Positions 356 to 62,614 of a DNA stretch of 62,728 nt are shown here, in pieces. Under the pieces are notes generated by a model that saw nothing but the letters and a program-made list of their open reading frames with translations, did not search any database and had not been told where the DNA came from. Numbering within the stretch: the first letter of the stretch is position 1; the number at the start of each line of letters is the position of its first letter. Source of the DNA: Janibacter corallicola NBRC 107790 (lineage in GTDB: Bacteria; Actinomycetota; Actinomycetes; Actinomycetales; Dermatophilaceae); contig NZ_BCSR01000012.1 of assembly GCF_001570965.1 (NCBI RefSeq), positions 1 to 62,728 on the forward strand, written 5' to 3'. The position numbers and the translations under genes were made by a program.

Positions 356-1624
356 GTGGGGACTACCGTGGTGCCCGTGACTTCTCCCCTGACCGCGGAC
401 GCCGTGGACGCTGCCGCCGCGCGGCTCGTCGACATCCTGGACCCCACCCCGCTGCACCGCAGCGAGCGTCTCTCCGCCGCCACCGGCGCGCAGGTCTGGC
501 TCAAGCGGGAGGACCTGCAGCCGGTCCGGTCCTACAAGGTGCGCGGCGCCTTCACCCTCATCGCCGGCCTCACCCCCGACCAGCGGGCGAAGGGGGTCGT
601 CGCCGCCTCCGCGGGGAACCACGCGCAGGGGGTGGCATTCGCCTGCCAGCGGCTCGGCGTCGACGCCCGGATCTACCTGCCGCGCAACACTCCTCGCCAG
701 AAGCGGGACCGGGTGGCAGCGCTCGGCGGCGGCCACGTCGAGATGGTCGTCGTCGGTGAGGTCTACGACGACGCCTCCCGAGCCGCCAAGGCCGACGCCG
801 CCCGCAGCGGCGCCGTGGTCGTACCGGCCTTCGACGCCGTGGACACCATGGCCGGGCAGGGCACGGTGGCCCGTGAGATCGTCGACCAGCTCGGGCGGAC
901 CCCGGACGTCGTGACCGTCCCCGTCGGTGGGGGCGGCCTGCTCGGAGGCATGGCCACGTGGCTGGCCGCGCGCTCCTCGAGCACCCGCCTCGTGGGGGCC
1001 GAGCCCGAGGGGGCCGCCTCGATGGCGGCGGCGTTGGCCGCCGGCCGGCCCATCGACCTGGACGAGGTCTCCCCCTTCGTCGACGGTGTCGCGGTGCGCC
1101 GCGTCGGTGACCTGACCCACGCCGCGGTGGATGCCACCGGCACCGAGCTGATCACGGTGCCCGAAGGGGCGGTGTGCATCGAGATGCTGCAGATGTACCA
1201 GACCGACGGGATCATCGCCGAGCCCGCGGGCGCCCTGGCGAGCACCGCCCTGGCGGACCTGGCCCTCGAGCCGGACTCCACGGTCGTCGCCGTCGTCTCC
1301 GGCGGCAACAACGACGTCTCCCGGTACGGCGAGATCGTCGAACGGGCCCTGATCCACGAAGGGCGCAAGCACTACTTCCTCGTCGACTTCCCCCAGGAGC
1401 CGGGGGCGCTGCGCCGCTTCCTCGACGAGGTGCTCGGGCCGGAGGACGACATCACGTACTTCGACTACATCAAGCGCAACAACCGGGACACCGGCACTGC
1501 CATCGTCGGCCTGGAGCTCGGCGACCCCGAGGACCTGCTGCCGTTGCTGGCCCGGATGGACGCCTCCCCCCTCGCCATCGAGCGGGTGGACCCGGACAGC
1601 CCGCTCTTCCGGGTCATCACGTGA
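356..1624 (+). CDS. ilvA: threonine dehydratase (ammonia-lyase), short regulatory form
   Basis: Predicted PLP enzyme of 422 residues converting L-threonine to 2-oxobutanoate and ammonia, the first committed step to isoleucine. The N-terminal fold-type II domain carries the PLP lysine in SYKVRGA (Lys61), the SAGNHAQG substrate loop and the phosphate-binding glycine loop VPVGGGGLLGG. Residues about 335-422 form an ACT-like regulatory domain beginning KHYFLVDFPQEPGALR, as in the single-ACT forms. The GTG at 356 is the longest start; GTGs at 368, 371 and 377 sit better behind the purine-rich GGGGTGGGG at 353-361, so the true protein may be 4-7 residues shorter. The copper operator begins 7 bp after the stop, so the next gene has its own promoter. 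Confidence 0.93.
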   Translation: MGTTVVPVTSPLTADAVDAAAARLVDILDPTPLHRSERLSAATGAQVWLKREDLQPVRSYKVRGAFTLIAGLTPDQRAKGVVAASAGNHAQGVAFACQRLGVDARIYLPRNTPRQKRDRVAALGGGHVEMVVVGEVYDDASRAAKADAARSGAVVVPAFDAVDTMAGQGTVAREIVDQLGRTPDVVTVPVGGGGLLGGMATWLAARSSSTRLVGAEPEGAASMAAALAAGRPIDLDEVSPFVDGVAVRRVGDLTHAAVDATGTELITVPEGAVCIEMLQMYQTDGIIAEPAGALASTALADLALEPDSTVVAVVSGGNNDVSRYGEIVERALIHEGRKHYFLVDFPQEPGALRRFLDEVLGPEDDITYFDYIKRNNRDTGTAIVGLELGDPEDLLPLLARMDASPLAIERVDPDSPLFRVIT

Positions 1625-1650
1625 CCTGAAATACCCCGCGCGGGTATCCT
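1621..1650 (+). promoter_or_regulatory. CsoR operator within a predicted promoter
   Basis: The sequence ATACCCCGCGCGGGTAT at 1631-1647 has perfect 6-bp arms (ATACCC/GGGTAT) around a GC-only centre. This is the pattern of known CsoR sites (T-A-C-C-C-C ... G-G-G-G-T-A). A -10-like TATCCT lies at 1645-1650 and a -35-like TGACCT at 1622-1627, spacing 17, so the operator fills the spacer. A repressor bound there would block RNA polymerase. The position directly upstream of a CsoR gene implies autoregulation. Confidence 0.8.
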
Positions 1651-1683
1651 GTTGCACAGGACACGGAGACCCGAGGAGGAGAC

Positions 1684-1965: not shown

Positions 1966-2022
1966 GGCCGAAACACCCTGCCACCTCCCCGAGGGGCGTG
2001 GCTCCCGGGGCCAGAATGAAGC

Positions 2023-4193: not shown

Positions 4194-7100
4194 GTGGGCA
4201 AGATCCACGTGGGCAGGACACTGCTGTCGAACCGGGGGCTGGAGGACGCGCTCCGCCAGGCACGAGTCGGCGACGAGCTGCACATCCACGAGGGCACCTA
4301 CCGGGCCGAGGCCATCATGCTCAACGGCATCCACCTCGTCGGTGTCGGCGAGCCGGACCAGATCGTGCTCGAGGCGCGGCTGGATGTCTGGGGCCACACC
4401 CGGATCACGGGGATCACGCTGCGGGCACCCCACTTCAGCAATGCCGTCTACCTCCGCTCGGAGGACGCCTACCTCGACCTGACCGGTGCATCGGTCGGCG
4501 GGGACCCGGCCCGCAAGTACCCCACGGTCTACGGCGACGGCGGCACCCTCGTCCTCTCCCGGACCACCATGAGCGCCCCGGAGGGGTCCCTCGGCGTGGC
4601 CCTCACCCAGAGCGGCTACCTGCACGCCACCGACTCACGGGTCGACGGCATCCAGCTCATCGGTGGGCGCGCGGTGCTCGCCGACGTCAGCACCACGACA
4701 CTCGAGGGCGCCCAGGGTGCCCGGATCGAGGCCTACAACACGCTGACGGTCCGGCCACCCGAGGGGCACCACGCCATGGCCCTCTCCGGGGAGTCGGTGG
4801 GCACCATCTCCGCCCTCCACCTGACCGACCCGCCCGTGAGCGCGCTCTGCGAGGACAGCTTCCTGCAGATCGACTCGGTGCACGGCGACGACGGCGGGAT
4901 CCGCGTCGCGGTCCGCGGCAGCTCCGTGGTCGAGTCCGAGGACGATGCCGTCACGACCTACGACCCCGACGCCCCGCCACCGCCGAAGGTCGTGACGTGG
5001 CACGTGAGCGACGCCCACGACTACCTGACCGCCGTCGCCCCGCACCTCGGCGCCGGCGACACCCTCCGTCTGGAGGAGGGCGAGTACTTCCTGCAGGACT
5101 GCGAGAACGGGGCCCTCGGCATCGCCTGCCACGTCGTCGGTGCCGGGGCGGACCGGACCGTACTGCACGGCTCGCTGTTCCTCCTCGACGGTCACGACGC
5201 ATCCGTCAGCGACCTCACCGTCGACCCCCGCGAGCACAACGGGGTGGTGAACAAGGTCGACTCGACGCTCGAGCTCACCGACGTCCGGATCACCTCGGCG
5301 AGCGAGGCCTACCCGGCCGTCTACCTGGGGTCGGGGACCACGACGATGCACGGCTGCACCGTCGAGGTGCCCGCCGACTCCGGCGCCGGGGTCACCCATG
5401 TCACCGATCGCGCCCGGCTGGACGCCACCTCCTCGGACCTCGGCTGGGTCACCGCCGTGGAACGCGGATCGGTTTCACTCCGGGACTGCGGATCCCACTG
5501 GCTCTGCGCGTCGGGGGCGACCATCACGTCGCGGGGCAGCCACGTCGTCGAGGGCAACACCCGCTCCATGCGGCAGGTCGTCGCCGAGCAGTCGGCCACG
5601 ATCTCCCTCGAGAGCCTCGCCACGGACTTCCCCGCCTTCGAGGCCTACGCCGAGGACAGCACCCTGAGCATCGAGCGCCTCACCGTGCCGGAGGACGGGA
5701 ACGGTCAGGTCCTGGTGGCCGGCGGAGCACGGGTCCGAGTGGACGAGAGGGCCGCGATCACCATCACCGACCTCGATGCGCAGGTGCAGGCCCGGCCCAC
5801 CGCGGGTACCGGGGCGACGGTCCCCGGCGAAGGGGACGTCCCGGAGGACCACCCCCTCGAGGACCCGCGCGAGGACACCCCCGGCGGGGTCGACGACCCC
5901 GGCGAGGACGCCACGGACGAGGATCCGCTCGCCCAGATCGAGGCGCTGACCGGACTGACGACGGTCAAGCAGCAGGTCCGCAAGTTCACCCGGATGGTCC
6001 GCTACAACCAGCTGCGCGAGGAGCAGGGCAAGGCCGGCAGCCCGATGGTCCTGCACAGCCTCTTCCTCGGGAACCCCGGGACCGGCAAGACCACCGTGGC
6101 CAGGCTGCTGGGCCGAGCCCTCCACCGGGCCGGCGCCATCCCCAGCGACACCTTCGTCGAGGTGACCGGCCGCGCCGACCTCGTCGGCGACACGATCGGC
6201 AGCTCCGCGAAGCTGACCACCGCGGCCCTCGAGTCCGCCCTCGGCGGGGTGCTCTTCGTCGACGAGGCGTACACGCTCTACAAGCCGCAGGCCAACGAGT
6301 TCGCCCAGGAGGCCGTCGACACGATCCTCACCTTCATGGAGAACCACCGCGACGAGATCGTGGTGCTCTTCGCCGGATACGGCGAGCAGATGCAGGACTT
6401 CATCGGCATGAACCCCGGCCTGCGCTCCCGCGTGACCAACCGCTTCGACTTCGAGGACTACACCCCGGAGGAGATCGCCGAGATCGGTTACCGGGCGCTG
6501 CTCGACGGGCAGCACACCGTCGACGAGGACCTGTACCGCGCGACCGTCGCCCGCGAGTACACGCGGGCCACCGACCGCAGCAACGGCCGCTGGGTCCGCA
6601 ACTTCAACCAGGACCTCGTCGCCGTGCTCGCCGAGCGGGTCCTCTCCTCCCCCGCGGAGACCGACATCTCCCACGTCACCGCCGAGGACCTGCACACCCT
6701 GACCGGGGGCAGCAGCCGGGACAAGGACGCACGGGTCCGGGAGCTCCTCGACGAGCTCGACGCCATGGTGGGCCTGGCACCGGTCAAGGAGTGGGTGCGC
6801 CGCCTCGTCAACCAGGTGGCAGTCGACCAGCGGCGCATGCAGCTGGACAAGGGCACCTCCCGACCGACGTACCACATGGTCTTCGCCGGCAACCCCGGTA
6901 CGGGCAAGACCACGGTCGCGCGGATCGTCGCCGAGCTCTTCCACAACCTCGGGATCCTCGCCACCCCGACGGTCAGCGAGGTGGGCGCCGTCGACCTCAT
7001 CGGCCAGTACATCGGCCACACCGAGGCGAACACGACGAGAGCCATCGACGCCGCCCTCGGCGGGGTGCTCTTCGTCGACGAGGCCTACACCCTGACCCCG

Positions 7101-7612: not shown

Positions 7613-8779
7613 TCACACCTCGGCCTTCCACGCCTCCTTGAGCCGCAGCTTGCCGGAGGTCTGCAGCAGCGCCCGGCGGTAGATGCGCTCGGCGAGGACG
7701 ATGACCACCGCGGTCACCGCGACGAGGACGCCCAGGCCCAGCAGCGCCTCCCACCACGTCCCGTCACCGGCGGCCAGACGCATCGGCTGGATGATCGCCG
7801 AGAAGGGCGGGATCCACGCCAGCACCTCCGCGACGGTGCCTTTAGCGAGCAGCGCGGCGAAGAAGACCACCATGATCAGCATCGTCACCGGCATCGAGGT
7901 GGTCTGGATGTCCTCCTGCCGCGAGGCCAGTGCCCCGGAGACCGCGAACATCGCGGCGATCATCGTGAAGCCGGCGAGGAAGTAGAGGACGAACCAGACC
8001 AGGCTCGAGGTGAGGCCGGGCAGCATGTCACCCATGTCGGTGAAGCTCACCCCGATGATCCCGATGAGCGCGTAGAGCATCATCTGTCCCACGGCGAGCA
8101 CGACCATCCCGACGAGCTTGCCGATGAGCAGCTGGCGAAGGGGGATGGACGTCGCGATGATCTCCACGATCCGCGACTGCTTCTCCTCGGTGACGCTCAT
8201 CGCCAGGTAGCTGCCGAACATGATCGCCGACATGTAGAAGAGGATCGCCATGATGAAGCCGACGACCTGACCGGCAGTCTCCTCGTCCGCGTCCCCGTTG
8301 AGGCTCGCGGTGGTGACGGTCGCGCCCTGCTGCAGCGCGTCGATGCTCGTGCCGGCCTGCTGCGCATTGTCGGCCATCACCGCCTGGCTGATCTTCTCCT
8401 CCGCGAAGCCCTTGAGCTGGTCGTCGACGCCGTCCTTGCCGGTGAGCTGCCACCCGCCGTCCGTCGGGTGCAGCCACGCGTCGGCCTCTCCGTCGTCCAG
8501 GGCCGCCTCGGCGGCGTCGTCGTCGGCGACGTCCACGACATCGACGCCCACGTGGCCCCCCTTCGTCCCCGCGGTGTGCAGCACCTCACCCATCTGCTGG
8601 GACTGGCTGGTCACGGCGACGTCGAAGGTCGTGTCCTTGTTCGACTGCCAGGTCTGGAAGCCGAAGACCCCGACGAGGATGACGAGGGACAGCAGCGTCG
8701 AGCCGATGAAGGTCTTGTCCCGCAGCCGGATCGAGATCTCCCGCTGGGCGACGGTCGCCCAGGCGTTCTTGGTGTTCAT
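7613..8779 (-). CDS. ABC-2 type exporter permease (NatB/YhaP-like)
   Basis: A 388-residue integral membrane protein. It has one N-terminal helix (LLSLVILVGVFGF), a large extracytoplasmic domain of about 150 residues, then about five helices clustered in the C-terminal half. This is the layout of NatB-like ABC-2 permeases used for Na+ or drug export. EEKQSRIVEIIATSIPLRQLLIGK is the typical cytoplasmic coupling region. Its ATG overlaps the stop of the upstream ATPase gene by 4 nt, so the two are translationally coupled. The substrate cannot be read from sequence. Confidence 0.88.
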   Translation of the reverse strand: MNTKNAWATVAQREISIRLRDKTFIGSTLLSLVILVGVFGFQTWQSNKDTTFDVAVTSQSQQMGEVLHTAGTKGGHVGVDVVDVADDDAAEAALDDGEADAWLHPTDGGWQLTGKDGVDDQLKGFAEEKISQAVMADNAQQAGTSIDALQQGATVTTASLNGDADEETAGQVVGFIMAILFYMSAIMFGSYLAMSVTEEKQSRIVEIIATSIPLRQLLIGKLVGMVVLAVGQMMLYALIGIIGVSFTDMGDMLPGLTSSLVWFVLYFLAGFTMIAAMFAVSGALASRQEDIQTTSMPVTMLIMVVFFAALLAKGTVAEVLAWIPPFSAIIQPMRLAAGDGTWWEALLGLGVLVAVTAVVIVLAERIYRRALLQTSGKLRLKEAWKAEV

Positions 8780-9693: not shown

Positions 9694-9756
9694 GGGGACG
9701 AATCTAGGGACCGGCGCTCCTGCGCGGATCCGCCCCGGGGATGGTCTTCCGGCGAA

Positions 9757-9815
9757 GGGGGTCTCCCCCCGCGGGGGGAGACCCCCGCCCTCCCGTCCCC
9801 GCACGGGGGCGGGAC
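9757..9815 (-). terminator. tandem hairpin terminators after the response regulator gene
   Basis: Reading on the minus strand from the regulator stop, a first hairpin (about 9793-9815, one mismatch) is followed by a perfect 30-bp palindrome at 9757-9786. The palindrome overlaps a copy of the dispersed CGAAGGGG motif (9753-9760). Two stems in series between tandem genes should strongly separate the two-component operon from the ABC exporter operon. Confidence 0.7.
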
Positions 9816-10494: not shown

Positions 10495-11792
10495 CCGCTC
10501 GCCTCCGCACGAAGGGGGATCCTCGCCCGCACCCGGTACCCGCCCATCGGCCGTGGCCCGATCTCGACGGTGCCGTCGTGGCTGGCGACCCGCTCCCGGA
10601 TGCCCAGCTGGCCCATGCCCGTCCCGGAGGTGCCCTGCCGGGGACGGCCGTCGTCGGTCACCTCCACCTCGGCGCTCGCGGCGTCGACCCGCACGATGAC
10701 CCGGGCGGTACGGGCGGTGGAGTGGCGGGCGACATTGGTCAGCGCCTCCTGGGCGGTGCGGTAGAGGGAGTGCCCGGCGGCGTCCGGGACGGCCCCGAGG
10801 GCACCCGGCGAGGCCTCGACCACCTCGTGCAGGACCTCCAGACCGGGCCGGCCGCCGGTGAGGGAGGCGACCTCCTCCAGCCCGGGCTGCGGGCCGTGGT
10901 CCTCACCGCCGGTGGCGCCCATGCGCAGGGTCCCGAGCAGGCCGCGCATCTGGCTGACCGCCTCGCGGCTGCCCTCCTCGATCCGGGAGAGGGCCCCCTT
11001 CGCCGCCTCGGGGTCGCGCTCCATCACCCGGCGGGCCGCCGAGGCCTGCACCCCGAGACCGGAGACGTGGTGGGCGACGACGTCGTGCAGGTCCCGGGCG
11101 ATACGCAGCCGCTCCTGGACCACGGCCTGCTCCCGCAGGCGGTCGGACTGCTCGGTGATGGTCGCTGCCTGCTCCTCGAGTCGGGCTCGCTGCCGTGCTC
11201 CGAGCCAGGCGACCTGCCCCCCGATGACGCCACCACCGAAGTAGAGGATGTTGATGACGCCGACCATGAGCGGGGCGGCGACGGAGGAGGGGATCAGCGC
11301 GTCAGGGTCGGTGTCGGTGACCATGTCGCTGACGACGTTGCCGACCCCCAGGCCCCAGACGAGCCAGAAGAACATCGCCGCGAGGATCAGCGCGTAGACG
11401 GCGACGAGCGCTCGCCGGTTCCGCGCCCACGCCACCCCGGCGAAGATCAGCATGAGGTAGACGACCTGGGTCGAGAGCAGGCTCGACATCATCGGGGACC
11501 AGGTCCCGATCGCCCAGTACATGAGGCTGCCGAGCGAGGCCGTGACGAGCGGCCAGCGGCGCCGGACCAGGAGCAGCAGCCCGGGCGCGGCGGTCAGCAG
11601 CCACTGCTGCCAGACGGGGTCCTCCACCTCCGCGAGGCTCCCGATGGAGCGCATCAGCGCGAGGACGAAGAGGGAGAGCAGGACCGTGACGACGGTGAGC
11701 AGGACGTCACCGCGGGTGACGGCCGCGCCGGGTCGCACCCAGTCCTCGTCGAGGGCGAGGAAGTCCTCGAAGCGCGTGGACCAGCTGCTCAT
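10491..11792 (-). CDS. two-component sensor histidine kinase (HisKA_3/NarX-DesK type)
   Basis: A 433-residue kinase. About five to six hydrophobic segments between residues 28 and 200 form the membrane sensor, followed by a coiled segment (ARLEEQAATITEQSDRLREQ). The dimerisation domain has the phospho-acceptor histidine in RIARDLHDVVAHHVSGLG, and the HATPase_c domain has the N-box ALTNVARHS and the glycine box DDGRPRQGTSGTGMGQLGIRERV. There is no extracytoplasmic sensor domain, so the signal is probably sensed within the membrane, as in the antibiotic- or lipid-sensing members of this class. First gene of the two-component operon. Confidence 0.93.
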   Translation of the reverse strand: MSSWSTRFEDFLALDEDWVRPGAAVTRGDVLLTVVTVLLSLFVLALMRSIGSLAEVEDPVWQQWLLTAAPGLLLLVRRRWPLVTASLGSLMYWAIGTWSPMMSSLLSTQVVYLMLIFAGVAWARNRRALVAVYALILAAMFFWLVWGLGVGNVVSDMVTDTDPDALIPSSVAAPLMVGVINILYFGGGVIGGQVAWLGARQRARLEEQAATITEQSDRLREQAVVQERLRIARDLHDVVAHHVSGLGVQASAARRVMERDPEAAKGALSRIEEGSREAVSQMRGLLGTLRMGATGGEDHGPQPGLEEVASLTGGRPGLEVLHEVVEASPGALGAVPDAAGHSLYRTAQEALTNVARHSTARTARVIVRVDAASAEVEVTDDGRPRQGTSGTGMGQLGIRERVASHDGTVEIGPRPMGGYRVRARIPLRAEASG

Positions 11793-11816: not shown

Positions 11817-12458
11817 TCAGAGGGTGACGGGCCCGTTCGGGGTGTTGAACGTGACCGACATCAGGCCGGGGGTGCCGTTGGGGGCCACGAAGTCGAAGGA
11901 GATGACCGAGGAGGTCTCCTCCGCGGTGTGCCCGCCCAACCAGTCGCGCACCCGCTCGGGGTCGCCGGCGATCTGGATCGAGGCGATCGTCACGTCCGTC
12001 TCGGCCTCCTGGGACGGGTGCGGCGAGCCCTCGCCCCACTTGACGAAGAAGGGCAGCTGCGGGTCCGCGAGGGTGCCCTTGATACCGATCTGCTTCCAGA
12101 GGAACTCCCGGCCGTCGGCGAGGCGACGGTTGCCGGGGACGGCCTGGCGGTCGAGGCGCTTCTCGACCCCCTCGAGGTCCTCGTCGACCCGGAGGACCCA
12201 GCCCATCCAGCCGCCGCCGGCCTCGGAGCGGGCCCGCACGACCTGGCCGAAGGGGGCCTTGTCGGCGCTCGGGTGGTCCAGCACCTCGACGATCTCGACG
12301 TACCGCTCGTGGGCGAGCGGCAGGATCATGTTGCGCGTGCCGAAACGTGGGTGGAGACCCCCGTCCACGGGGGTGACGCCGAGAGCCTCGCCGAGACGCT
12401 CGGCGGTGGACTGGAGCCCGCTCTGGTCCGCTGCAAAGGAGACATGGTCAACGCGCAT
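11817..12458 (-). CDS. VOC/glyoxalase-like domain protein
   Basis: A 213-residue protein of the Glyoxalase_3-like family. It opens MRVDHVSFAADQSGLQSTAERLGEALG and continues with the paired beta-alpha-beta-beta-beta units of the vicinal-oxygen-chelate fold (FGTRNMILPL, RYVEIVEVLDHPSA). The ATG at 12458 was chosen because homology begins there; the frame extends further upstream but is antisense to the methyltransferase gene's neighbourhood and lacks a ribosome site. Members of this family are mostly of unknown function. It lies 47 bp downstream of the RNA methyltransferase gene, possibly in one transcript. Confidence 0.82.
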   Translation of the reverse strand: MRVDHVSFAADQSGLQSTAERLGEALGVTPVDGGLHPRFGTRNMILPLAHERYVEIVEVLDHPSADKAPFGQVVRARSEAGGGWMGWVLRVDEDLEGVEKRLDRQAVPGNRRLADGREFLWKQIGIKGTLADPQLPFFVKWGEGSPHPSQEAETDVTIASIQIAGDPERVRDWLGGHTAEETSSVISFDFVAPNGTPGLMSVTFNTPNGPVTL

Positions 12459-13327: not shown

Positions 13328-14032
13328 ATGCCCCACAATCGGTGGGTGCTCATCGACCGCGCCGTCTCCGCGCTTCGCGTCCTCGGCGCCGGATCAGCCC
13401 TGCTGGCGCTCACCGGCCTCGTCGCCGTGCTCGGTGAACGGGTCATCATCCCCTCCGCGTGGGTCCGCTCGCTGGACGAAGGGGGCGTCGGCCGCGGCAC
13501 CGGTGTGCTCACCGGCCACCCGGGGCTGGTCGACCCGGCCCACTGGTGGGCGGTGCTCAGCGGCCCGTGGGTCGTCCATCCGCTCGTCCTGGCCCTCGGG
13601 CTCCTGCTCGCGGCACGGCACCGGATCACGCTGCGCACCGCACTCGTCACCTTCTCGATCGGCATCGCCGGCGGAGTGCTCGGTGCGCTGTGCAAGGAGA
13701 TCGTCGAACGGCCTCGGCCCGACGAGGCCCTCGTGACGCTCGACTCCTGGTCCTACCCCAGCGGTCACGCGACGAACATCGCCCTCGGAGCGGTCCTCGT
13801 CATCTCCCTCGTGCGGGCCGTACGCACCGTCTGGATCCGTTGGTGTGCAACGTTGCTCGCCCTCCTCGGCGCCGCGCTCACCGCGGCCGACCGGGTGCTG
13901 CTCGGCGTGCACCACGCCAGCGACGTGGCGGCCGGCCTGGCCCTCGGCACGCTCACCGCGGTCATCGGCCTGGCGTGCTTCCCGGCGCGACCTCGCCCAG
14001 ACGCCCGGCCCGAACCTGCCAGCGACGGGTGA
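13328..14032 (+). CDS. PAP2-family membrane phosphatase
   Basis: A 234-residue integral membrane phosphatase with about six hydrophobic helices and the three-part PAP2 active site: KEIVERPRP, SYPSGHATN and DRVLLGVHHASD (family pattern KX6RP - PSGH - SRX5HX3D, here DR for SR). Such enzymes dephosphorylate lipid phosphates, for example undecaprenyl diphosphate or phosphatidic acid, on the outer face of the membrane. The ATG at 13328 is the annotated start. A -10-like CACAAT at 13334-13339 lies 6 nt before an in-frame GTG at 13346, so a leaderless, six-residue-shorter form is equally plausible. Its 3' end overlaps the convergent ABC-F gene by 71 bp. Confidence 0.88.
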   Translation: MPHNRWVLIDRAVSALRVLGAGSALLALTGLVAVLGERVIIPSAWVRSLDEGGVGRGTGVLTGHPGLVDPAHWWAVLSGPWVVHPLVLALGLLLAARHRITLRTALVTFSIGIAGGVLGALCKEIVERPRPDEALVTLDSWSYPSGHATNIALGAVLVISLVRAVRTVWIRWCATLLALLGAALTAADRVLLGVHHASDVAAGLALGTLTAVIGLACFPARPRPDARPEPASDG

Positions 14033-16701: not shown

Positions 16702-16723
16702 GGCCCCCTTCGCGCCCACCGGG

Positions 16724-41896: not shown

Positions 41897-41910
41897 TGTC
41901 CGAAGGGGGC

Positions 41911-50730: not shown

Positions 50731-51669
50731 ATGGGTGCAGGACACGACCACACCCCGAGCGCCGAGGACGCAGGACGCCCCGGGGACTTCCGCCGCAAGC
50801 TGGCCATCGCCTTCGGCATCACCGCGCTCATCGTGCTCGCCCAGGCGACCGGCGCCTGGCTCACCGGCAGCCTCGCGCTGCTGACCGACACCGCCCACGC
50901 CCTCACCGACGCCTCCGGTCTGCTCGTCGCCCTGGTCGCCGGCACGCTCATGCTGCGGCCCCCTTCGTCCCGACGGACCTGGGGCTTCCGCCGAATCGAG
51001 GTGATGGCCGCTCTCGGGCAGGCCGCTATCCTGCTCCTCGTCGGCGCCTACACCGCGGTCGAGGGGATCCGCCGCCTCTTCGCCCCACCCGAGGTGCCGG
51101 CGCAGGAACTGCTCGTCTTCGGCGTCATCGGCCTCGTCGCCAACCTCACCGCCATCGCGGTCCTCGCCTCGGGCAGGTCGGCGAACTTCAACATGCGTGC
51201 CGCCTTCCTCGAGGTGCTCAACGACGCCCTCGGCTCGGTCGGGGTGATCGTCGCCGCGATCGTCATGGCCACCACCGGGTACCTGCGGGCGGACGCGATC
51301 GCCGGACTCTTCATCGCGGCTCTCATCCTCCCCCGCGCGATCAAGCTGCTGCGGGAGACCTCCAGCGTGCTCATGGAGTTCACCCCGAAGGGCCTGGACC
51401 TGGCGGCCGTCCACGAGCACATGCTCTCCGTCGAGCACGTCCGGGAGGTCCACGACCTGCACGCCTCGACGGTGGCGACCGGGCTGCCGACCCTCACCGC
51501 TCACGTCGTCGTCGAGGAGGAGTGCTTCGCCGACGGTCACGCGGCCGAGGTGCTCGCACAGGTCAAGGAGTGCGTCGCCGAGCACTTCGACGTGGCGATC
51601 CACCACTCGACCATCCAGATCGAGACGCCGACGATCAGCGAGGAGGAGCCGGGGTCGGTGAAGCATTGA
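50731..51669 (+). CDS. cation diffusion facilitator (CDF) metal exporter
   Basis: A 312-residue CzcD-type CDF protein with six helices and a C-terminal ferredoxin-like metal domain (VHEHMLSVEHVREVHDLHASTVATGLPTLTAHVVVEE). The transmembrane site uses HALTD in helix 2 (HxxxD), but helix 5 has EVLND where CzcD zinc pumps have HVLGD, so a Glu replaces the His. Zn(II)/H+ antiport is most likely, though altered selectivity is possible. GACAAT 6 nt before the ATG suggests a leaderless transcript. The longer upstream frame is rejected. Confidence 0.92.
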   Translation: MGAGHDHTPSAEDAGRPGDFRRKLAIAFGITALIVLAQATGAWLTGSLALLTDTAHALTDASGLLVALVAGTLMLRPPSSRRTWGFRRIEVMAALGQAAILLLVGAYTAVEGIRRLFAPPEVPAQELLVFGVIGLVANLTAIAVLASGRSANFNMRAAFLEVLNDALGSVGVIVAAIVMATTGYLRADAIAGLFIAALILPRAIKLLRETSSVLMEFTPKGLDLAAVHEHMLSVEHVREVHDLHASTVATGLPTLTAHVVVEEECFADGHAAEVLAQVKECVAEHFDVAIHHSTIQIETPTISEEEPGSVKH

Positions 51670-52167: not shown

Positions 52168-52793
52168 GCGACGACGTCTGGGACCTCGTCCGCACCGAGC
52201 GCCGCGCACTCGTCGCCGACCTCGCCACCCTGCCCGCGGAGCAGTGGGAGACACCCTCGCTGGCGCAGGGGTGGACCGTCCACGACGTCGCCGGGCACCT
52301 CGTGACCAACGCGAGGGTCACCCCCTTCGGGCTCGTGGTGGCGATGGCGCGCGCGAAGGGGGACTTCGACCGGCAGAACGACGCCGGCGTCGCAGCGGGC
52401 CGCGGCGACTCCCCGGCGCAGACCCTGGAGCGGCTGCGGGCGGTCACCGACCGGCGGACCGGCCCCCCGACGTGGCTCGCCCCGTTGGAGAGCCGACTCG
52501 TCGAGGAGGTCGCCCACGGGGAGGACATCCGCGGCGCCGTCGGCATCAGCCGCGACTACCCGACCGCTGCGGTGGTCCCCGCGATCCGCTACCAGGCCCG
52601 GACCAAGGACTCCCTCGGCGGCGGGCGCTCGCTGGCCGAGCGGGTCACCCTCGTCTGCGAGGACGCCGACCTGCGCCTCGGTGACGGCCCCGAGCTGCGC
52701 GGCAGCGCTCTGGCCCTGCTCATGGTGCTCACCGGCCGACGGCACGCGCTCGAGTCGCTGCACGGCCCGGGGCTCGCCCTCCTCGACCCGTGA
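52164..52793 (+). CDS. maleylpyruvate isomerase-family mycothiol-dependent protein
   Basis: A 209-residue protein of the TIGR03083 family. GWTVHDVAGHLVTNARV and RLVEEVAHGEDIRGAVG carry the three metal ligands (His, Glu, His) expected for the DinB-type N-terminal domain, followed by the SCP2-like C-terminal part. Characterised relatives use mycothiol in ring isomerisation; the reaction here is unknown. It overlaps the deaminase remnant (ATGA) and the EamA gene (GTGA). Confidence 0.85.
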   Translation: MSDDVWDLVRTERRALVADLATLPAEQWETPSLAQGWTVHDVAGHLVTNARVTPFGLVVAMARAKGDFDRQNDAGVAAGRGDSPAQTLERLRAVTDRRTGPPTWLAPLESRLVEEVAHGEDIRGAVGISRDYPTAAVVPAIRYQARTKDSLGGGRSLAERVTLVCEDADLRLGDGPELRGSALALLMVLTGRRHALESLHGPGLALLDP

Positions 52794-54258: not shown

Positions 54259-54974
54259 TCCCGGCCGTGCAGCGGGTCGCCTTCCACTGGAGCGGCGGCA
54301 AGGACTCCGCCCTCGCGCTCATCGCACTCCTCGATGACGAGGACGTGCTCGTCGACCGGCTCGTCACGACGGTCGAGCGCGGCCGGAATGCCTCGACCGT
54401 CCACGACATCCCGACGGCCCTGCTGCGGGCGCAGGCCGAGAGCATCGGTCTGCCGCTGCACACGGTGGCGATCCCCGGCCCCGGACTCACCGGCTACACC
54501 GAGGCGATGGCCGCGGCCGCGGCGGAGATGCGAAGGGAGGGCATCGACGCCTTCGCCTTCGGGGACCTCGCCGCCTCCGGCGTCCTCGAGCACCGGCGGG
54601 AGCAGGCCCGGCCGCTGGGGATCGAGGTGCTCACGCCGCTCGGGGAGCTGACCTCCACGGAGTGCATCGAGCACGTCCTCGCCTCGGGCATCCGCGCCAC
54701 CACGGTCGTCGTCGACGCCTCGCTGCTCGGGCCGGAGGCGGTCGGCGTCCCTCTCGACCGGGGCTTCGTCACGAGCCTGCCGCCCGGCGCCGACCCCTGC
54801 GGCGAGCTCGGCGAGTACCACTCCTTCGCCCACGACGGTCCGCTCTTCCGGTGGCCGGTCCCCTTCGTCCTGGGGGCGGCGCGCCGGACCGAGGAACGGA
54901 TCCGGACCACGGAGGGCCTGCGGACCTACGCCTACTGGATGGCCACGCCGCTGCCGGCGTCCCATCCCGGGTAG
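54255..54974 (+). CDS. PP-loop ATPase of the Dph6/adenine nucleotide alpha hydrolase family
   Basis: A 239-residue ATP-binding protein. The PP-loop FHWSGGKDSALAL is intact, as are STVHDIPTALLRAQAESIGLPL and GADPCGELGEYHSFAHDGPLF, the signature of the diphthine-ammonia-ligase-like family. Bacteria lack diphthamide, so the substrate is unknown; the family may adenylate and amidate a small molecule or RNA. A decayed relative lies at 46183-46627. GTG start, overlapping the DUF1697 stop. Confidence 0.9.
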   Translation: MIPAVQRVAFHWSGGKDSALALIALLDDEDVLVDRLVTTVERGRNASTVHDIPTALLRAQAESIGLPLHTVAIPGPGLTGYTEAMAAAAAEMRREGIDAFAFGDLAASGVLEHRREQARPLGIEVLTPLGELTSTECIEHVLASGIRATTVVVDASLLGPEAVGVPLDRGFVTSLPPGADPCGELGEYHSFAHDGPLFRWPVPFVLGAARRTEERIRTTEGLRTYAYWMATPLPASHPG

Positions 54975-57000: not shown

Positions 57001-57708
57001 TCAGCGGGCGACGTAGACGGTGTTGCTGGACTCCCCGCGGGTGAGGGGGTTGGCGAAGCTGACCACGTGCGCCACCACGTCATCGAAGACCTGCTCCAGC
57101 AGGCCGGTGAACCCCGCCTCCGGGGGGTCGTCGGACCAGAGCGCGAAGACGCCTCCGGGCCGGAGGTGCTCGGTGAGCCGACGCAGCCCTGCCTCGGAGT
57201 AGAAGGGGGCGTGCCCCGGGTGGAGCAGGTGGTCCGGCGTGTGGTCGATGTCCAGGAGCACCGCGTCGACGCGCCGACCCGGCGAGTCGGCGTCGAAGCC
57301 GCCCTCGGAGGCAGCCAGCGCGAAGAAGTCCTCGTGCCGGAGCCGGGTGCGGGGGTCGCGCACGAGGGCGGCGGCATCCGGCAGCAGCTCGCGCTCGTGC
57401 CAGTCGATGACCTCGGCCATCGCCTCGATGACGACGAGCGAGCGCGTCCGCGGGTCCTCCAGCGCCGCCCGGGCGGTGCAGCCGAGCCCGAGGCCGCCGA
57501 CGACGACGTCGAGCGCCTCCCCCTTCGCCTCGGCCAGGCCCAGCCGGGCCAGCTCGATCTCGGCGACGGTGAAGAGGCTCGACATGAGGAACTCGTCGCC
57601 GAGCTTGACCTCGTACACCTCTGCCCCCGTGGTGGGCTCGGCCCGCCGCCGCAGGCTGATCTCACCGCGTGGGGTCTCGCTCCAGGCCAGTTCCTCGAAA
57701 CGTCGCAC
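57001..57708 (-). CDS. spermidine synthase-like methyltransferase-fold protein
   Basis: A 235-residue Rossmann protein related to polyamine aminopropyltransferases: VYEVKLGDEFLMSSLFTVAEIELARLGL, the nucleotide motif VVVGGLGLGCTARAALED, and AVLLDIDHTPDHLLHPGHAPFYSEAGLRRL. The N-terminal beta domain of true SpeE is short. Many such proteins in Actinobacteria have no shown polyamine activity, so the function is left open. It is divergent from the GNAT gene (47 bp), whose transcript seems leaderless. Confidence 0.82.
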   Translation of the reverse strand: MRRFEELAWSETPRGEISLRRRAEPTTGAEVYEVKLGDEFLMSSLFTVAEIELARLGLAEAKGEALDVVVGGLGLGCTARAALEDPRTRSLVVIEAMAEVIDWHERELLPDAAALVRDPRTRLRHEDFFALAASEGGFDADSPGRRVDAVLLDIDHTPDHLLHPGHAPFYSEAGLRRLTEHLRPGGVFALWSDDPPEAGFTGLLEQVFDDVVAHVVSFANPLTRGESSNTVYVAR

Positions 57709-57755: not shown

Positions 57756-58316
57756 GTGATCACCATCCGTCCTCGCCGCGACGCGGACCTCGTCGAGCTC
57801 GGGCAGATGCTCCTCGAGCAGCAGCCGGTGTCCGGCTACCCGCACCACATGCCGCTCAGGAGCACGGCCGAGGCCTTCATCCGCCGGCCGGGGCAGCGCG
57901 CGGCGTGGGTCGCGGAGGAGGACGGCCGGTTGCTCGGGCACGTCGCGATCTCCGTCCCGGCGGATCCGGCGACGCTGCCGGAGGGCGACGCCGACCTCAT
58001 CCGCGAGTGGATGGGGGCGCACGACCGACCGCACGACCGCCTCGGCGAGGTGGTGCTGCTCTTCACCTCCCTGGCGGCGGCCGGCACCGGGGTCGGGCGT
58101 CGTCTGCTGGACACCGCCGTCGCCGCCATGGACGAAGGGGGCCTCGCCCCCTGCCTCGACGTGCACGTCAACGGGGCGGGGGCGCTGCGGCTGTACCACC
58201 GGACCGGGTGGCAGGAGGTCGGTCGGGCCCGACCGACCTGGCTCGACGCGGACTCGCCGGACGTCGTCGTGATGGTCCTCCCCCGCGGCCGACCGGCGGG
58301 CAGACTGTCGGTATGA
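57756..58316 (+). CDS. GNAT family N-acetyltransferase
   Basis: A 186-residue acetyltransferase. ITIRPRRDADLVELGQML is the first strand-helix, LLFTSLAAAGTGVGRRLLDTAVAAM carries the acetyl-CoA pyrophosphate loop (AAAGTGVG), and NGAGALRLYHRTGWQEVG is motif B. The acceptor is unknown. GTG at 57756 is taken as the start: AGGATT at 57744-57749 is a likely -10, six bases upstream, giving a leaderless mRNA. The eight-residue longer form is unlikely. It overlaps the SDR gene (ATGA). Confidence 0.88.
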   Translation: MITIRPRRDADLVELGQMLLEQQPVSGYPHHMPLRSTAEAFIRRPGQRAAWVAEEDGRLLGHVAISVPADPATLPEGDADLIREWMGAHDRPHDRLGEVVLLFTSLAAAGTGVGRRLLDTAVAAMDEGGLAPCLDVHVNGAGALRLYHRTGWQEVGRARPTWLDADSPDVVVMVLPRGRPAGRLSV

Positions 58317-59086
58317 GCCACTCCCGCGCCGTCCTCGTCACCGGTGCCTCCCGCGGCATCGGGCGCGCCGTCGCGAGGGCCTTCGCCGAGCACGGGGACC
58401 GCGTCGCGGTCCACGTCCGCTCGGCGGTGGCGGAGGGTGAGTCGACGGTCGCCTCGCTCCCCGGCGAGGGGCACGCGCTGGTCACCGCCGACCTCGGGGA
58501 CGCCACGGCCGCAGCTGAGCTCGTCGCGAGGGCGGAGGCGGCGCTCGGGCGGCCGGTGACCGTGCTCGTCAACAACGCCGGGATCGCGACCACGCCCGCG
58601 CTCGCCCATCCGCCGGCGGAGACCTCGGCGACAGAGTGGCAGGCGGCGTGGGAGGAGTACCTGCGGGTCAACGCCCTCGGCACCGCGATGGTGACCCACG
58701 CGATGACCCGCCGGCTCATCGAGGTCGGGCTGCCCGGCCGGGTCGTCTCGATCGGGACCCGCGGGGTGCACCGGGGCGAGCCGGAGTTCCCCGCGTACGC
58801 CGCCTCCAAGGCCGCGTTGCACTCGATGGACGCCTCGCTCGCCGTCGCGCTCGCGCCCCACGGGATCGCCGTGGCGACCGTCGCGCCGGGCTTCGTCGAG
58901 ACCGAGAGGGTGAGGGACCGGCTGGACTCCGCTGCGGGGGAAGCCATCCGGGCGGACTCCCCCTTCGGCCGGGTGGGGCGCCCCGAGGAGGTGGCCTCGG
59001 CCGTGCTGTGGTTGGCCTCCCCGGAGGCCGTCTGGACCTCCGGCGCCACGCTCGACCTCAACGGTGCCTCCCACCTGCGACCATGA
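58313..59086 (+). CDS. SDR-family oxidoreductase
   Basis: A 257-residue classical SDR: TGASRGIGRAVA, NNAGIAT, IGTRG (serine replaced) and the active-site YAASKAALHSMDASLA. The usual catalytic serine position (VSIGTRG) has Gly/Thr, so the Ser-Tyr-Lys triad is partly altered. C-terminal GRVGRPEEVASAVLWLASPEAVWTSGATLDLNG is typical of FabG-like members. The gene overlaps GNAT and ends 4 bp before hrpB, suggesting one transcript. Confidence 0.88.
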   Translation: MSHSRAVLVTGASRGIGRAVARAFAEHGDRVAVHVRSAVAEGESTVASLPGEGHALVTADLGDATAAAELVARAEAALGRPVTVLVNNAGIATTPALAHPPAETSATEWQAAWEEYLRVNALGTAMVTHAMTRRLIEVGLPGRVVSIGTRGVHRGEPEFPAYAASKAALHSMDASLAVALAPHGIAVATVAPGFVETERVRDRLDSAAGEAIRADSPFGRVGRPEEVASAVLWLASPEAVWTSGATLDLNGASHLRP

Positions 59087-59090: not shown

Positions 59091-61700
59091 GTGAGCGACG
59101 TCGACCCGGCCCGCATCGGTGCGGGGCTCCCCTTCGCCGAGGCGCTGGCGGACCTGCGCGCGGCGGTCGAGGGGCGCGGCGTGGCCGTCGTCCAGGCGCC
59201 GCCGGGCTCCGGCAAGACGACCCTCGCGCCGCCCCTGCTCGCCGACGTCGTCGAAGGCCGGGTCGTCGTCACCGGGCCGCGCCGGGTGGCCGTCCGCTCC
59301 GCCGCCCGGCGCCTCGCCCGGCTGACCGGCACCGACCTCGGCGACCTCGCCGGCTACACCGTGCGGGGCGAGCGGCACGTGCGGCGCTCCACGCGAGTCG
59401 AATTCGTCACCCCAGGGGTGCTCGTGCGCCGGCTGCTCTCCGACCCCGAGCTCACCGACACCGCCGCCGTCGTGCTCGACGAGGTCCACGAGCGGGCGCT
59501 CGACACCGACCTGCTGCTCGGGATGCTCGCCGAGGTGCGCCAGCTGCGTGACCTCCCGCTCGTCGCGATGTCCGCGACCCTCGACGCCCCCGGGATCGCC
59601 CGTCTGCTCGGTGACGACGTCGGGCCCGCGCCGGTCGTCGACAGCGAGGGCTCCCTGTACCCGCTCGAGGTCGAGTGGCGGCCCGCGCCCGGACCCCGGA
59701 CCGATGCCCGGGGCGTGTCCCTCGACTTCCTCGAGCACGTGGCCACCACGACCGCGGCCCACCACGGCGAGGGGGACCGCGCCCTGAGGCGCGACGGAGC
59801 GGGTCCCACGCCCCGCGTGGGCGCCTCGAAGGGCGACACCCTCGTCTTCGTCCCCGGCGCCCGCGAGGTGGACCGGGTCGTGGAGCGACTGCGCGGCCTC
59901 GTGACCGGAGCCGAGGTCCTGCCGCTGCACGGCCGGCTCGCGCCCCGCGAGCAGGACAGGGCGATCAGCACCGGGGACGGCCCCCGGATCATCGTCTCGA
60001 CCGACCTCGCCGAGTCCTCCCTCACCGTGCCCGGCGTCCGGCTCGTCGTCGACGCCTGTCTCTCCCGCGAACCGCGACGCGACGCCGCCCGCGACATGAC
60101 CGGCCTCGTCACGGTGCAGGCCTCCCGGGCCTCGATGACCCAGCGGGCCGGGCGCGCCGCCCGCCTCGGTCCGGGCCGGGTGGTCCGGCTCGTCGAGGAG
60201 TCGGTGTGGACCCACGCCCCCGAGCACGTCACGCCGCAGATCACCACCGCCGACCTCACCGACACCGCGCTGACACTGGCCGCGTGGGGGTCGCCGCGCG
60301 GTGACGACCTGCCGCTGCTGACCCCACCACCCGCGGTCGCGATCACCGCCGCCGAGCGGACGCTGCGGGGGCTCGGACTGATCGACACCGACGGCCGCAT
60401 CACCGACGACGGGCTCGCCGCGACCCGGGTCCCCGCCGATCCACGCCTCGCCCGTGCCCTGCTCGACGGCGCGCCGCTCGTCGGACCCCGTCGCGCAGCG
60501 GAAGTGGTCGCCGTGCTGTCCGGCGACCTGCGCAGCGAGGACGGTGACCTGGACCGGCTGGTCGCCGAGCTGCGCTCCGGCCGGGTCCGCGATGCGGCCC
60601 GGTGGCGTCGCGAGGTCGATCGGCTGACCCGGCTGGCCCCCGCGGGGGACGGGACGTCGGCGGATGGCGGGGACTGCTCCACCGGCGACCGGGACGCCGG
60701 GCGCGAGGGCGGTCCGGTCTCGGGGCTCGTCACGGCCCTGGCCCACCCGGGGCGGGTCGGGCGCCGCGTCGGCGACGGCCCGACCTACCTGCTCGCCTCC
60801 GGCACCCGGGCTGCGCTGCCGGCGGGAAGCCCCCTTCGCCACCACGAGTGGGTGGCCGTGGCGGACGTGGGACGCACCGACGCGAAGGTCGCGGCCGGCA
60901 CCGGTGCCGTCATCCGCCTCGCGGCCGGGATCGATCGCGGCGACGCCGAGACCGCCGCGGCCGGGCTGCACGTCCGCGAGGTCCGCGCCGAGCTGGGCGA
61001 GGGGCGGGTCCGTGCCCGCGAGGTCGATGCCATCGGCGCGATCGAGCTCGCCTCCACCCCGGTGCGCGCCGACGCGGCGACCGGCGCCGGTGCCGTGGAG
61101 CGCGCCCTCGCCGCCGGGGGACTCGATGTCCTGCACTGGTCCGAGGCGGCCGATCGCCTCCGGCGGCGCCTCGCCGCGCTGCACCACCACCTCGGTCAGC
61201 CGTGGCCGGACGTCTCCGACGACGCGCTGGCCGGCCGGCTGGCCGAGTGGCTCGGCCCGGAGCTGCAACGGATCGCCACGGGGACCCCGGTGGGCCGGAT
61301 CGACCTGACCGACCCCCTTCGCCGGCTGCTGCCCTGGCCGGAGGCGACCCGGCTGGAGGAGCTGGCTCCGGAGCGGCTGCAGGTGCCCAGTGGCTCCCGC
61401 GCCGCGATCACCTGGCCGCCGCACGACGACCCTTCTGCCGCACCGGTGGTCGCGGTGAAGCTGCAGGAGTGCTTCGGCCTCGCCGAGACCCCTCGTCTCG
61501 TCGACGGCCGGGTTCCGGTGCTCTTCCACCTGCTCTCCCCCGCCCGGCGGCCGCTCGCGGTGACCGACGACCTGGCCTCCTTCTGGTCCGGGCCGTATGC
61601 CCAGGTGCGCGCCGAGATGCGCGGGCGCTACCCGAAGCATCCGTGGCCGGAGGACCCGTGGAGTGCACCGGCGACGGCACGCACGAAGCACCGGATGTGA
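59091..61700 (+). CDS. hrpB: DEAH-box ATP-dependent helicase HrpB
   Basis: An 869-residue DEAH/RHA helicase. Motif I is APPGSGKTT, motif Ia GPRRVAVRSAARR, motif II DEVH, motif III SATLD, then motif V STDLAESSLTVPG and motif VI QRAGRAAR, followed by HA2-like and HrpB-specific C-terminal domains (ITWPPHDDPSAAPVVAVKLQECFGL). The role is RNA or RNP remodelling; loss is usually tolerated. GTG at 59091 is preferred over the longer frame. It is among the genes richest in the CGAAGGGG motif (three reverse copies). Confidence 0.93.
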   Translation: MSDVDPARIGAGLPFAEALADLRAAVEGRGVAVVQAPPGSGKTTLAPPLLADVVEGRVVVTGPRRVAVRSAARRLARLTGTDLGDLAGYTVRGERHVRRSTRVEFVTPGVLVRRLLSDPELTDTAAVVLDEVHERALDTDLLLGMLAEVRQLRDLPLVAMSATLDAPGIARLLGDDVGPAPVVDSEGSLYPLEVEWRPAPGPRTDARGVSLDFLEHVATTTAAHHGEGDRALRRDGAGPTPRVGASKGDTLVFVPGAREVDRVVERLRGLVTGAEVLPLHGRLAPREQDRAISTGDGPRIIVSTDLAESSLTVPGVRLVVDACLSREPRRDAARDMTGLVTVQASRASMTQRAGRAARLGPGRVVRLVEESVWTHAPEHVTPQITTADLTDTALTLAAWGSPRGDDLPLLTPPPAVAITAAERTLRGLGLIDTDGRITDDGLAATRVPADPRLARALLDGAPLVGPRRAAEVVAVLSGDLRSEDGDLDRLVAELRSGRVRDAARWRREVDRLTRLAPAGDGTSADGGDCSTGDRDAGREGGPVSGLVTALAHPGRVGRRVGDGPTYLLASGTRAALPAGSPLRHHEWVAVADVGRTDAKVAAGTGAVIRLAAGIDRGDAETAAAGLHVREVRAELGEGRVRAREVDAIGAIELASTPVRADAATGAGAVERALAAGGLDVLHWSEAADRLRRRLAALHHHLGQPWPDVSDDALAGRLAEWLGPELQRIATGTPVGRIDLTDPLRRLLPWPEATRLEELAPERLQVPSGSRAAITWPPHDDPSAAPVVAVKLQECFGLAETPRLVDGRVPVLFHLLSPARRPLAVTDDLASFWSGPYAQVRAEMRGRYPKHPWPEDPWSAPATARTKHRM

Positions 61701-61780
61701 CCCGCCACGGGTGCCGTCCGGAGTGCTGTCGGCCTACCCCGCGTCGACGTCCTCGCGCGGGCGGTACCGCCGACCGACGA

Positions 61781-62614
61781 TCATCGGCGCGAGCGGCCCG
61801 TGATCCGCAGGTAGTAGCCGTCGGGGTCGTGCACGCGGAAATCGGTCAGGTGCCACTCGCGCTCGGTGAGGTCCTCGGCGGGCTCGATCCCCGCAGCGAG
61901 GACCCGGTCGCGCTCGGCCCGCACGTCGTCGACGTCGAGGACGATCTCGGTGCCGCTCGGGAGGTGCCGGTGCTCCGCCGGTCGGGCGGGGGACTCGAGC
62001 ATCCCGATCCGCACAGCGTCCCGGCCGATCCACGCGTACGGCGGATGGTCCGTGCGGGAGAGCACCTCGAAACCCAGCGCGGTGTAGAAGCGCAGTGAGG
62101 CCTCGATGTCCGCGGGAAAGATCTCGATCCGCAGCGTCATCCCCACCCCCTCCCCACTGGCACCTGTTGCGGCTGCCACGAGCCGTCGCAGCACCCACCG
62201 GTAGCCGGGTGCGGCCATGCGCGCGGCGACCGCCTCGAGCGGGCGCGCGGGGGCCGGGAGCCAGGGGAGGGTCAGCTCCTCGCGCCACCGGACCACAGCC
62301 CCGCCGCGAAGGGGGTCCACCCGCACCTCGATCCGACCACCGACGACCCGGCCGACCTTGACGACGGTCGCGGTTCCCCCTTCGGCATCAGTCGGTGGGG
62401 ACCACGTGGTGATGCGCATCGGGTCCTCGAAGCCGACCGGGCCGAACGACGTGCGGCCGGTGAACCCGGCCCGGTCGCCCAGCCGGGTCGCCGGCGGGTC
62501 GAGGTCGACGCGGGTGAGCGGGACGAGCGCGCTCTGCCGGTCGAGGTCCCAGACCCGTTCCCAGGCCTGCGCCGGGGTCAGGTCGGTCTCGACCCGGACC
62601 AGGAACTCGCTCAC
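61781..62614 (-). CDS. SRPBCC-VOC fusion protein
   Basis: A 277-residue ORF in two parts. Residues 1-158 are an SRPBCC/START-like domain (MSEFLVRVETDLTPAQAWERVWDLDRQSALVPLTRV ... VRWREELTLPWLPAPARPLEAV). Residues 159-277, from MTLRIEIFPADIEASLRFYTALGFEVLS, form a VOC/glyoxalase domain ending WHLTDFRVHDPDGYYLRITGR. These normally occur as separate proteins; here no stop separates them, so this is either a natural fusion or two genes that lost a stop. The GTG start overlaps the upstream gene's stop (GTGA). Confidence 0.8.
   Translation of the reverse strand: MSEFLVRVETDLTPAQAWERVWDLDRQSALVPLTRVDLDPPATRLGDRAGFTGRTSFGPVGFEDPMRITTWSPPTDAEGGTATVVKVGRVVGGRIEVRVDPLRGGAVVRWREELTLPWLPAPARPLEAVAARMAAPGYRWVLRRLVAAATGASGEGVGMTLRIEIFPADIEASLRFYTALGFEVLSRTDHPPYAWIGRDAVRIGMLESPARPAEHRHLPSGTEIVLDVDDVRAERDRVLAAGIEPAEDLTEREWHLTDFRVHDPDGYYLRITGRSRR

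Follow-up and report, generated by a model that had tools for sequence, protein, structure and literature searches.

What maintains the octamer CGAAGGGG, which recurs throughout a 62,728-nucleotide stretch of the Janibacter corallicola NBRC 107790 genome (contig NZ_BCSR01000012.1; the whole stretch is called the window below)? The reading favoured here, with a probability of roughly three in four, is that CGAAGGGG is a putative DNA uptake sequence (DUS) of Janibacter and of a related genus, g64, that is, a self-recognition tag for natural transformation, and that it represents one dialect in a system shared across the family, in which CGGCATAC is the more common; this reading was drawn from genome sequences. 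The marks of a DUS were found together, namely copy excess, both orientations, intergenic enrichment, hairpin pairs, dialects and a predicted uptake machine. This role, the best-fitting one, was absent from those listed in a preliminary description of the window.

Exact matching located 48 copies of CGAAGGGG in the window (26 forward and 22 reverse, spanning 588 to 62384; the core reads CCCCCTTCG on the opposite strand), whereas 100 dinucleotide-preserving shuffles yielded a mean of 3.8 and at most 9 copies, and a third-order Markov model predicted 7.4. The preliminary count of about 47 copies (26 and 21) was correct for the forward strand and one short for the reverse strand. The core was directly followed by a fifth G in 34 of the 48 copies, and only 19 reached the full GCGAAGGGGG, to which most copies had been said to extend. 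Gene positions and Pfam matches confirmed the placement of copies inside ilvA, ABC-F, FecC, HrpB and grpE. No match was returned by an Rfam search of the window. The copies are given below, one CGAAGGGG copy per line, as exact matches in the window; gene calls were used to distinguish coding from non-coding positions, Pfam to name genes, and fold energies are given for the hairpin pairs.

588..595, forward, ilvA
1072..1079, reverse, ilvA
1162..1169, forward, ilvA
5828..5835, forward, coding
8136..8143, forward, coding
8558..8565, reverse, coding
9753..9760, forward, outside gene calls
10510..10517, forward, coding
10995..11002, reverse, coding
12248..12255, forward, coding
13477..13484, forward, outside gene calls
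14519..14526, forward, ABC-F gene, left arm of hairpin pair 14519-14542 (-19.7 kcal/mol)
14535..14542, reverse, right arm of hairpin pair 14519-14542
16673..16680, forward, outside gene calls, left arm of hairpin pair 16673-16712 (-26.8 kcal/mol)
16705..16712, reverse, right arm of hairpin pair 16673-16712
20091..20098, forward, FecCD permease gene
20407..20414, forward, FecCD permease gene
25115..25122, reverse, coding
27846..27853, forward, coding
28388..28395, forward, coding
28557..28564, reverse, coding
29715..29722, forward, MFS transporter gene
29724..29731, forward, MFS transporter gene, 9 bp from the 29715 copy on the same strand (pair 29715-29731)
30005..30012, reverse, MFS transporter gene
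31274..31281, forward, FAD-binding protein gene, left arm of hairpin pair 31274-31297 (-30.3 kcal/mol)
31290..31297, reverse, right arm of hairpin pair 31274-31297
34563..34570, reverse, clpB
36803..36810, forward, coding
38235..38242, forward, coding
40471..40478, reverse, coding
41755..41762, forward, coding
41901..41908, forward, outside gene calls
43051..43058, forward, dnaJ
43937..43944, forward, grpE, left arm of hairpin pair 43937-43961 (-29.2 kcal/mol)
43954..43961, reverse, right arm of hairpin pair 43937-43961
46513..46520, reverse, outside gene calls
50960..50967, reverse, coding
52322..52329, reverse, coding, inverted pair with 52354 in the opposite arrangement (CCCCTTCG first)
52354..52361, forward, coding, partner of 52322
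54860..54867, reverse, coding
57520..57527, reverse, coding
58133..58140, forward, coding
58960..58967, reverse, coding
59129..59136, reverse, hrpB helicase gene
60831..60838, reverse, hrpB helicase gene
61314..61321, reverse, hrpB helicase gene
62307..62314, forward, coding
62377..62384, reverse, coding

The same excess was observed in the whole source genome (3.1 Mb, 92 contigs), in which 2,201 copies (1110 forward and 1091 reverse, one per 1.4 kb) were counted against 142 copies (80 forward, 62 reverse) of the reversed word, used as a control; the strong, dispersed, genome-wide over-representation proposed earlier was thus upheld. In a 463 kb sample of this genome, 335 copies were observed and 56 were predicted by a third-order Markov model. 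If CGAAGGGG arose as a side effect of codon usage, of base composition or of a family of hairpin repeats, its commonest frames among the 269 coding copies of the sample, xCG-AAG-GGG (95) and C-CCC-TTC-G (87), would agree with that origin, as they use codons common at high GC. However, within-gene synonymous shuffling yielded 56.2 ± 5.7 copies instead of 269, whereas the reversed word was present 17 times and expected 16.9 times under the same shuffling. In the complete relative G008 (400 kb sampled), 242 coding copies compared with 49 after shuffling. Most CGAAGGGG copies stood singly, outside hairpins. The excess is not due to codon usage, so it survived the refutation by codon usage that the preliminary description had put forward, and a by-product origin can be given almost no weight. 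The frame CCC-CTT-CG with its rare leucine codon, to which attention had been drawn earlier, does occur, albeit in a minority of 28 of the 269 coding copies. Genes were called from codon-position GC, and their starts may be misplaced. Copies were spaced a little more regularly than under random placement (coefficients of variation, 0.89 and 0.86). Seven 5-kb bins below 68% GC held 1.3 copies each, against 3.8 in the 85 others, which is partly expected because the word is G-rich.

The octamer CGAAGGGG also occurs in abstracts on Arthrobacter phages, where we assume that it is perhaps a phage cohesive end. These abstracts belong to two papers (PMC9119123 and PMC9476940). A literature match to the octamer's letters was obtained for 501 papers, and the 20 listed had titles dealing with unrelated topics. 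Other words were over-represented as well: ATGCGCAT in the window (8 copies, 0.4 expected), GGTGCGCA/TGCGCACC about fourfold in the sample of the source genome (140 copies, 37 expected), and AAACCCTA (12 against 0.1) and ACCCTAGG (40 against 1.0) in the G008 sample (L141-L160).

The density of CGAAGGGG was two to four times higher between genes than inside them, with one copy per 722 bp against one per 1543 bp in the own-genome sample and one per 359 bp against one per 1479 bp in G008. Within genes, 142 copies lay on the coding strand and 127 on the other. Pairs in the order that permits a hairpin (CGAAGGGG...CCCCTTCG, within 40 bp) numbered 21 in the source genome and 24 in G008, with about 2.4 and 3.2 expected, which is approximately eight times the chance level. 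Pairs in the opposite order (3 and 5) occurred at about the chance level, and pairs on one strand (2 and 2) were fewer than that. The stems of the listed hairpin pairs were mostly perfect or near-perfect, and the four pairs in the window folded with energies of -19.7 to -30.3 kcal/mol. Among pairs within 60 bp, 21 of 26 in G008 (9 convergent, 8 co-directional and 4 divergent) and 11 of 23 in the source genome (5 convergent, 4 co-directional and 2 divergent) were located in gaps between gene calls, a placement that would suit terminators.

The orientation of the copies was relevant to a FtsK/KOPS-like or other segregation guide, one of the roles suggested earlier. In the window, 23 forward and 12 reverse copies preceded 45 kb and 3 and 10 followed it (Fisher 0.011), an imbalance that is modest when every split point is allowed (0.023 of 300 permutations). 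This local unevenness, as previously noted, speaks for such a guide, whereas the forward and reverse totals of the whole genome were nearly equal (1110 against 1091). In G008, 192 of 359 copies lay on the leading strand (P 0.21, not significant), with forward and reverse counts of 94/81 in the first half and 86/98 in the second; these values came from 20 evenly spaced 20 kb samples of a contig that begins near dnaA, with the terminus assumed half-way and not sampled closely. A segregation guide is therefore not supported, because no significant strand skew was found, and it is highly improbable.

A Chi-type hotspot, at which RecBCD would stop degradation and begin RecA loading at CGAAGGGG, had also been suggested. 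Like Chi, CGAAGGGG is a G-rich, polar octamer in hosts with RecB, which exceeded the family cut-off in 5 of 5 Janibacter, 3 of 3 g64 and 3 of 12 other genomes (RecC and RecD were not searched for). Unlike Chi, it showed no significant leading-strand bias and frequently formed hairpin pairs, and we know of no role for paired hairpins in Chi. Moreover, RecB was also found in G024, G025 and G131 (and below the cut-off in G098 and G058) without CGAAGGGG, and the counterpart word CGGCATAC was abundant in G022, G032, G169 and G193, none of which had a full RecB match. Neither polarity nor the hairpin pairs support the Chi role. With RecB present in Janibacter and g64, it is the foremost rival that has a defined enzyme, though an improbable one. 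RecB was patchy in family f1 (20 genomes), with no full match in G022, G032, G169, G193, G202, G016 and G029.

In eight aligned Janibacter sequences, the octamer was kept in 204 of 396 site comparisons (0.52), against 0.367 for octamers of equal GC; the controls were matched on GC alone, the species pairs are non-independent, and some pairs gave the opposite result (L011-L012, 1 of 8 kept). Loss of conservation between orthologues, which the preliminary description had named as the other ground for abandoning the motif, was accordingly not found. All 16 Janibacter genomes (genus g1) held 1,198 to 2,588 copies of CGAAGGGG and all three g64 genomes 2,589 to 3,180, whereas the remaining 167 of the 186 family genomes stayed at background (84 to 396), as did 22 genomes from the order's other families (51 to 342). 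Seven named Janibacter loci contained 9 to 23 copies each, and none was found in the one Knoellia locus searched. Relative to the window, DnaJ protein identity was 78-85% for the seven Janibacter loci and 66% for Knoellia, and DNA identity was 79-81% and 78.7%, respectively. DnaJ thus assigns the window to Janibacter (NCBI family Intrasporangiaceae), and the motif counts agree with this assignment. ClpB identity was 83-84% for g64 and 83-85% for several other genera, so that g64 was not set apart.

A blind count of octamers in 20 kb samples from the family's other genera brought up CGGCATAC repeatedly. In 30 of 53 genera (186 genomes counted), at least one genome carried 800 or more copies; the highest count was 4,724 in 4.2 Mb, against 388 for the control, and forward and reverse counts were almost equal. 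In G022, 150 copies compared with 12.6 after synonymous shuffling, so this word is not codon-driven either. The Knoellia locus carried 16 copies of it in 21 kb. Janibacter and g64 had only 7 to 41 copies of CGGCATAC, and at most 180 were found in any of the 362 sampled genomes of 19 other families (396 genomes of the order), which were counted for this word only. One-letter variants were enriched in some genomes, CGGCATCC in G202 (62 against 7.5 expected) and G031 (45 against 7.0) and CGGCATTC in G027 (43 against 2.5), and G018 carried CGTCATAC alongside CGGCATAC. Of 19 motif-poor genera, all but g3, g44, g61 and g65 were sampled for alternative words. In a midpoint-rooted phylogeny of TadA, the Tad-1 ATPase, built from 36 genomes, the nine rows with CGAAGGGG formed one side of a branch with support 99/95 and sat among CGGCATNC and motif-poor rows; this is a single gene, itself perhaps linked to the trait. 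The simplest reading is that the word switched once, in the lineage ancestral to g64 and Janibacter.

Three genomes were outliers in their genera, G139 (g66), G065 (g45) and G114 (g62), with 19 to 50 copies of CGGCATAC where most congeners have hundreds to thousands; as natural losses, they could be used to test what maintains the word. Single 20 kb stretches of G071 (L175), G089 (L176), G095 (L195) and G161 (L198) were rich in other words, for example CCGTCGAA (29), CGTAGCGA (14), AACGACAA (15) and CCTGTCCG (13), and are perhaps local repeat arrays. An intermediate dialect, CGGCCTTC, was considered in G101 (18 against 3.5 expected in 20 kb) and dropped when it failed in 80 kb.

ComEA (SLBB and helix-hairpin-helix domains) and ComEC are predicted from the sequence of the source genome. 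A Tad locus on contig 41 encodes an ATPase, two T2SSF (TadB/C-type) proteins, TadE and a TadG-like protein, together with a short Flp-like protein lacking a Pfam match and a second TadE-like protein below the cut-off. A second Tad locus, with a DUF4244 protein, lies on contig 59, and on contig 1 a third locus combines a weak match to the PilT family with neighbouring genes that are pilus-like, as judged by eye. A PilT-type type IV pilus was rejected as the uptake machine of the family: PilT exceeded the cut-off in 10 of 58 genomes overall and in 0 of 36 from the family, with fragments in G020 below the cut-off. ComEA was found in 56 of 58 genomes (the match in the source genome fell below the model cut-off, with the Pfam domains present) and, within the family, ComEC in 180 of 186 genomes. 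The idea that motifs vanished because competence genes were lost proved uninformative, ComEC being present in motif-poor genomes also. ComEC matched in two or three parts in G002, G099, G101, G123, G128, G151, G160, G171, G184, G191 and G203 and scored weakly in G007, G136 and G139, which may mean that a further competence gene is hit by insertions, or may stem from breaks between contigs. The TadF proteins of G000 and two g64 genomes share the ending PRYE, possibly through common descent alone.

Carriage of a motif was associated with the Tad pilus. Neither word was present in any of the six genera without the Tad-1 ATPase (g43, g15, g51, g60, g7 and g14; 11 genomes tested, the orthologue being scored absent when the best match was below 200 bits), and a motif was present in 34 of the 47 genera with it (those with one or more genomes matching at E 4e-110 or better), giving P 0.0012 with phylogeny not corrected. 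This association, the hairpin pairs and the replacement of one word by another within the family are not predicted if CGAAGGGG is a selected, dispersed site of some other DNA-binding or modifying protein unrelated to uptake, such as a methyltransferase, a nucleoid protein or a HIP1-like element. HIP1 is a palindromic octamer, and CGAAGGGG is not a palindrome. On the other hand, a word of this kind could be maintained by whatever protein is specific to the clade, and motif-poor genera with ComEC and the Tad ATPase exist; a site of this kind is unlikely, though less so than a Chi-type hotspot.

Insertions into the Tad-1 ATPase gene were also observed. Among 27 genomes chosen for weak or missing Tad-1 ATPase matches, seven (G022, G111, G164, G172, G184, G186 and G201) had the gene in at least two parts on one contig, 3.9 to 79 kb apart, with breaks near residue 165 (one), near 200-209 (three) and between 213 and 234 (three); G184 and G186 belong to the motif-poor genus g2. 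The 11.0 kb insert of G022 (G022:C43:9233-21506, L179/L180) contains serine recombinase genes (Pfam Resolvase, Recombinase) and a second resolvase, and holds one CGGCATAC copy against about 12 expected (P 6e-5), the word being dense outside. In G008, the ATPase is cut short after its first 275 residues, where other genes follow (G008:C1 near 2241740, L253). The adjoining 5.7 kb carry genes for Vsr, a cytosine methylase and a restriction enzyme of the Eco29kI type, and contain no CGAAGGGG copy against about 4.6 expected at the genome mean rate; on the other side of the break, 20 copies occurred in 17.4 kb. Elements that disrupt competence genes are known in other bacteria, as passages of Croucher et al. 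describe, and the inserts in the ATPase gene support, short of proof, a role of the Tad-1 locus in DNA uptake.

Passages of PMC3630211 describe uptake sequences in two Gram-negative families, Neisseriaceae and Pasteurellaceae. As in the Neisseriaceae, CGAAGGGG is a short non-palindromic word with thousands of copies, about one per 1-1.5 kb (neisserial spacing is given as about 1.1-1.5 kb in parts of PMC2397512), and it shares with the neisserial DUS intergenic enrichment, stem-loop inverted pairs and family dialects that follow phylogeny, going by extracts from PMC3630211 and PMC2397512. It differs in its Actinomycetota host, an unrelated word and no PilT-type pilus over the cut-off. The uptake signal sequence (USS) of the Pasteurellaceae is likewise an over-represented word (9 bases) with subtypes in one family, as outlined in PMC3630211, but word, phylum and pilus are different; its receptor is described as only predicted in a section of PMC12616744. 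Micrococcus luteus, a member of the same order, transforms via comEA/comEC and tad loci without type IV (pseudo)pili, according to portions of PMC12849477 and PMC6370729, and Janibacter likewise has comEA, comEC and tad loci. The transformation paper PMC12849477 does not contain the term 'uptake sequence', and two Micrococcus loci (21 and 10 kb) held 4 and 0 copies of CGAAGGGG and 0 and 1 of CGGCATAC. Among the matches listed in the open-licence literature, no report of an uptake sequence in Actinomycetota was found. A 2023 paper states in one passage that none had been reported for mycobacteria (PMC10526031), and in passages of a 2025 review Neisseria is singled out as the exceptional case in which a DUS is required (PMC12236230).

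Several results weigh against CGAAGGGG as an uptake sequence. Genes hold 269 of the 335 copies in the own-genome sample, whereas neisserial DUS lie mostly between genes, as stated in a passage of PMC2397512. Single-mismatch copies were enriched at most about twofold, one rare variant excepted (5 against 0.8 expected). Hairpin pairs of CGGCATAC were not in excess in G022 (3 and 2 by order, about 2.2 expected each), and so the hairpin hallmark applies to the Janibacter word only. CGAAGGGG and CGGCATAC have little sequence in common, unlike the Neisseria dialects, which share a CTG core (in the relevant section of PMC3630211), and for that reason the term dialect rests on mutual exclusion and phylogeny. 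CGGCCTTC had 23 copies in 80 kb of G101 and fell outside the seven top words. The PilT family cut-off was reached by none of 16 Janibacter and none of 20 other family genomes (ComP was not searched for); the Janibacter word therefore does not belong with the ComP system, although its mode of action may be similar. A strong motif was missing from 13 of the 47 genera that have the Tad-1 ATPase, and among motif-rich genomes the ATPase was found only as remnants or pieces in G122, G143 and G105 and only in parts in G003, G032, G146 and G149. Inspection of the pilin genes near the Tad ATPase for a receptor identified none. Finally, scarcity of the motif in mobile DNA is expected of any clade-specific chromosomal motif.

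For CGAAGGGG as an uptake sequence, the following mechanism is proposed. A Tad/Flp pilus or its tip would bind double-stranded DNA carrying the octamer, probably via either ComEA or a minor pilin of the TadE or TadF type; ComEA and ComEC would import one strand, and RecA would recombine it. If fragments bearing the word were preferred in uptake, chance copies would therefore spread by biased import (molecular drive) and accumulate in permissive places, and preferential import would keep exchange among kin. The dialect would have switched when the ancestor that Janibacter shares with g64 acquired a receptor of altered specificity. The fuller account, in which the system arose in an Actinomycetota family independently of those in Neisseriaceae and Pasteurellaceae, is read by the Tad/Flp pilus, has several dialects, underwent a full switch from CGGCATAC to CGAAGGGG in the Janibacter ancestor and is opposed by mobile elements that insert into the pilus ATPase gene, seems fairly probable.

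If true, this would be a further independent origin of uptake sequences, with a different pilus, and self-recognition in transformation would be a trait that evolves repeatedly. The dialect switch between related genera, and the presence within one genus of species rich and poor in the motif, would open both selection versus molecular drive and the receptor search to direct testing. The reading, if it holds, would also suggest natural transformability in many members of the family, which could then be handled experimentally by means of tagged DNA.

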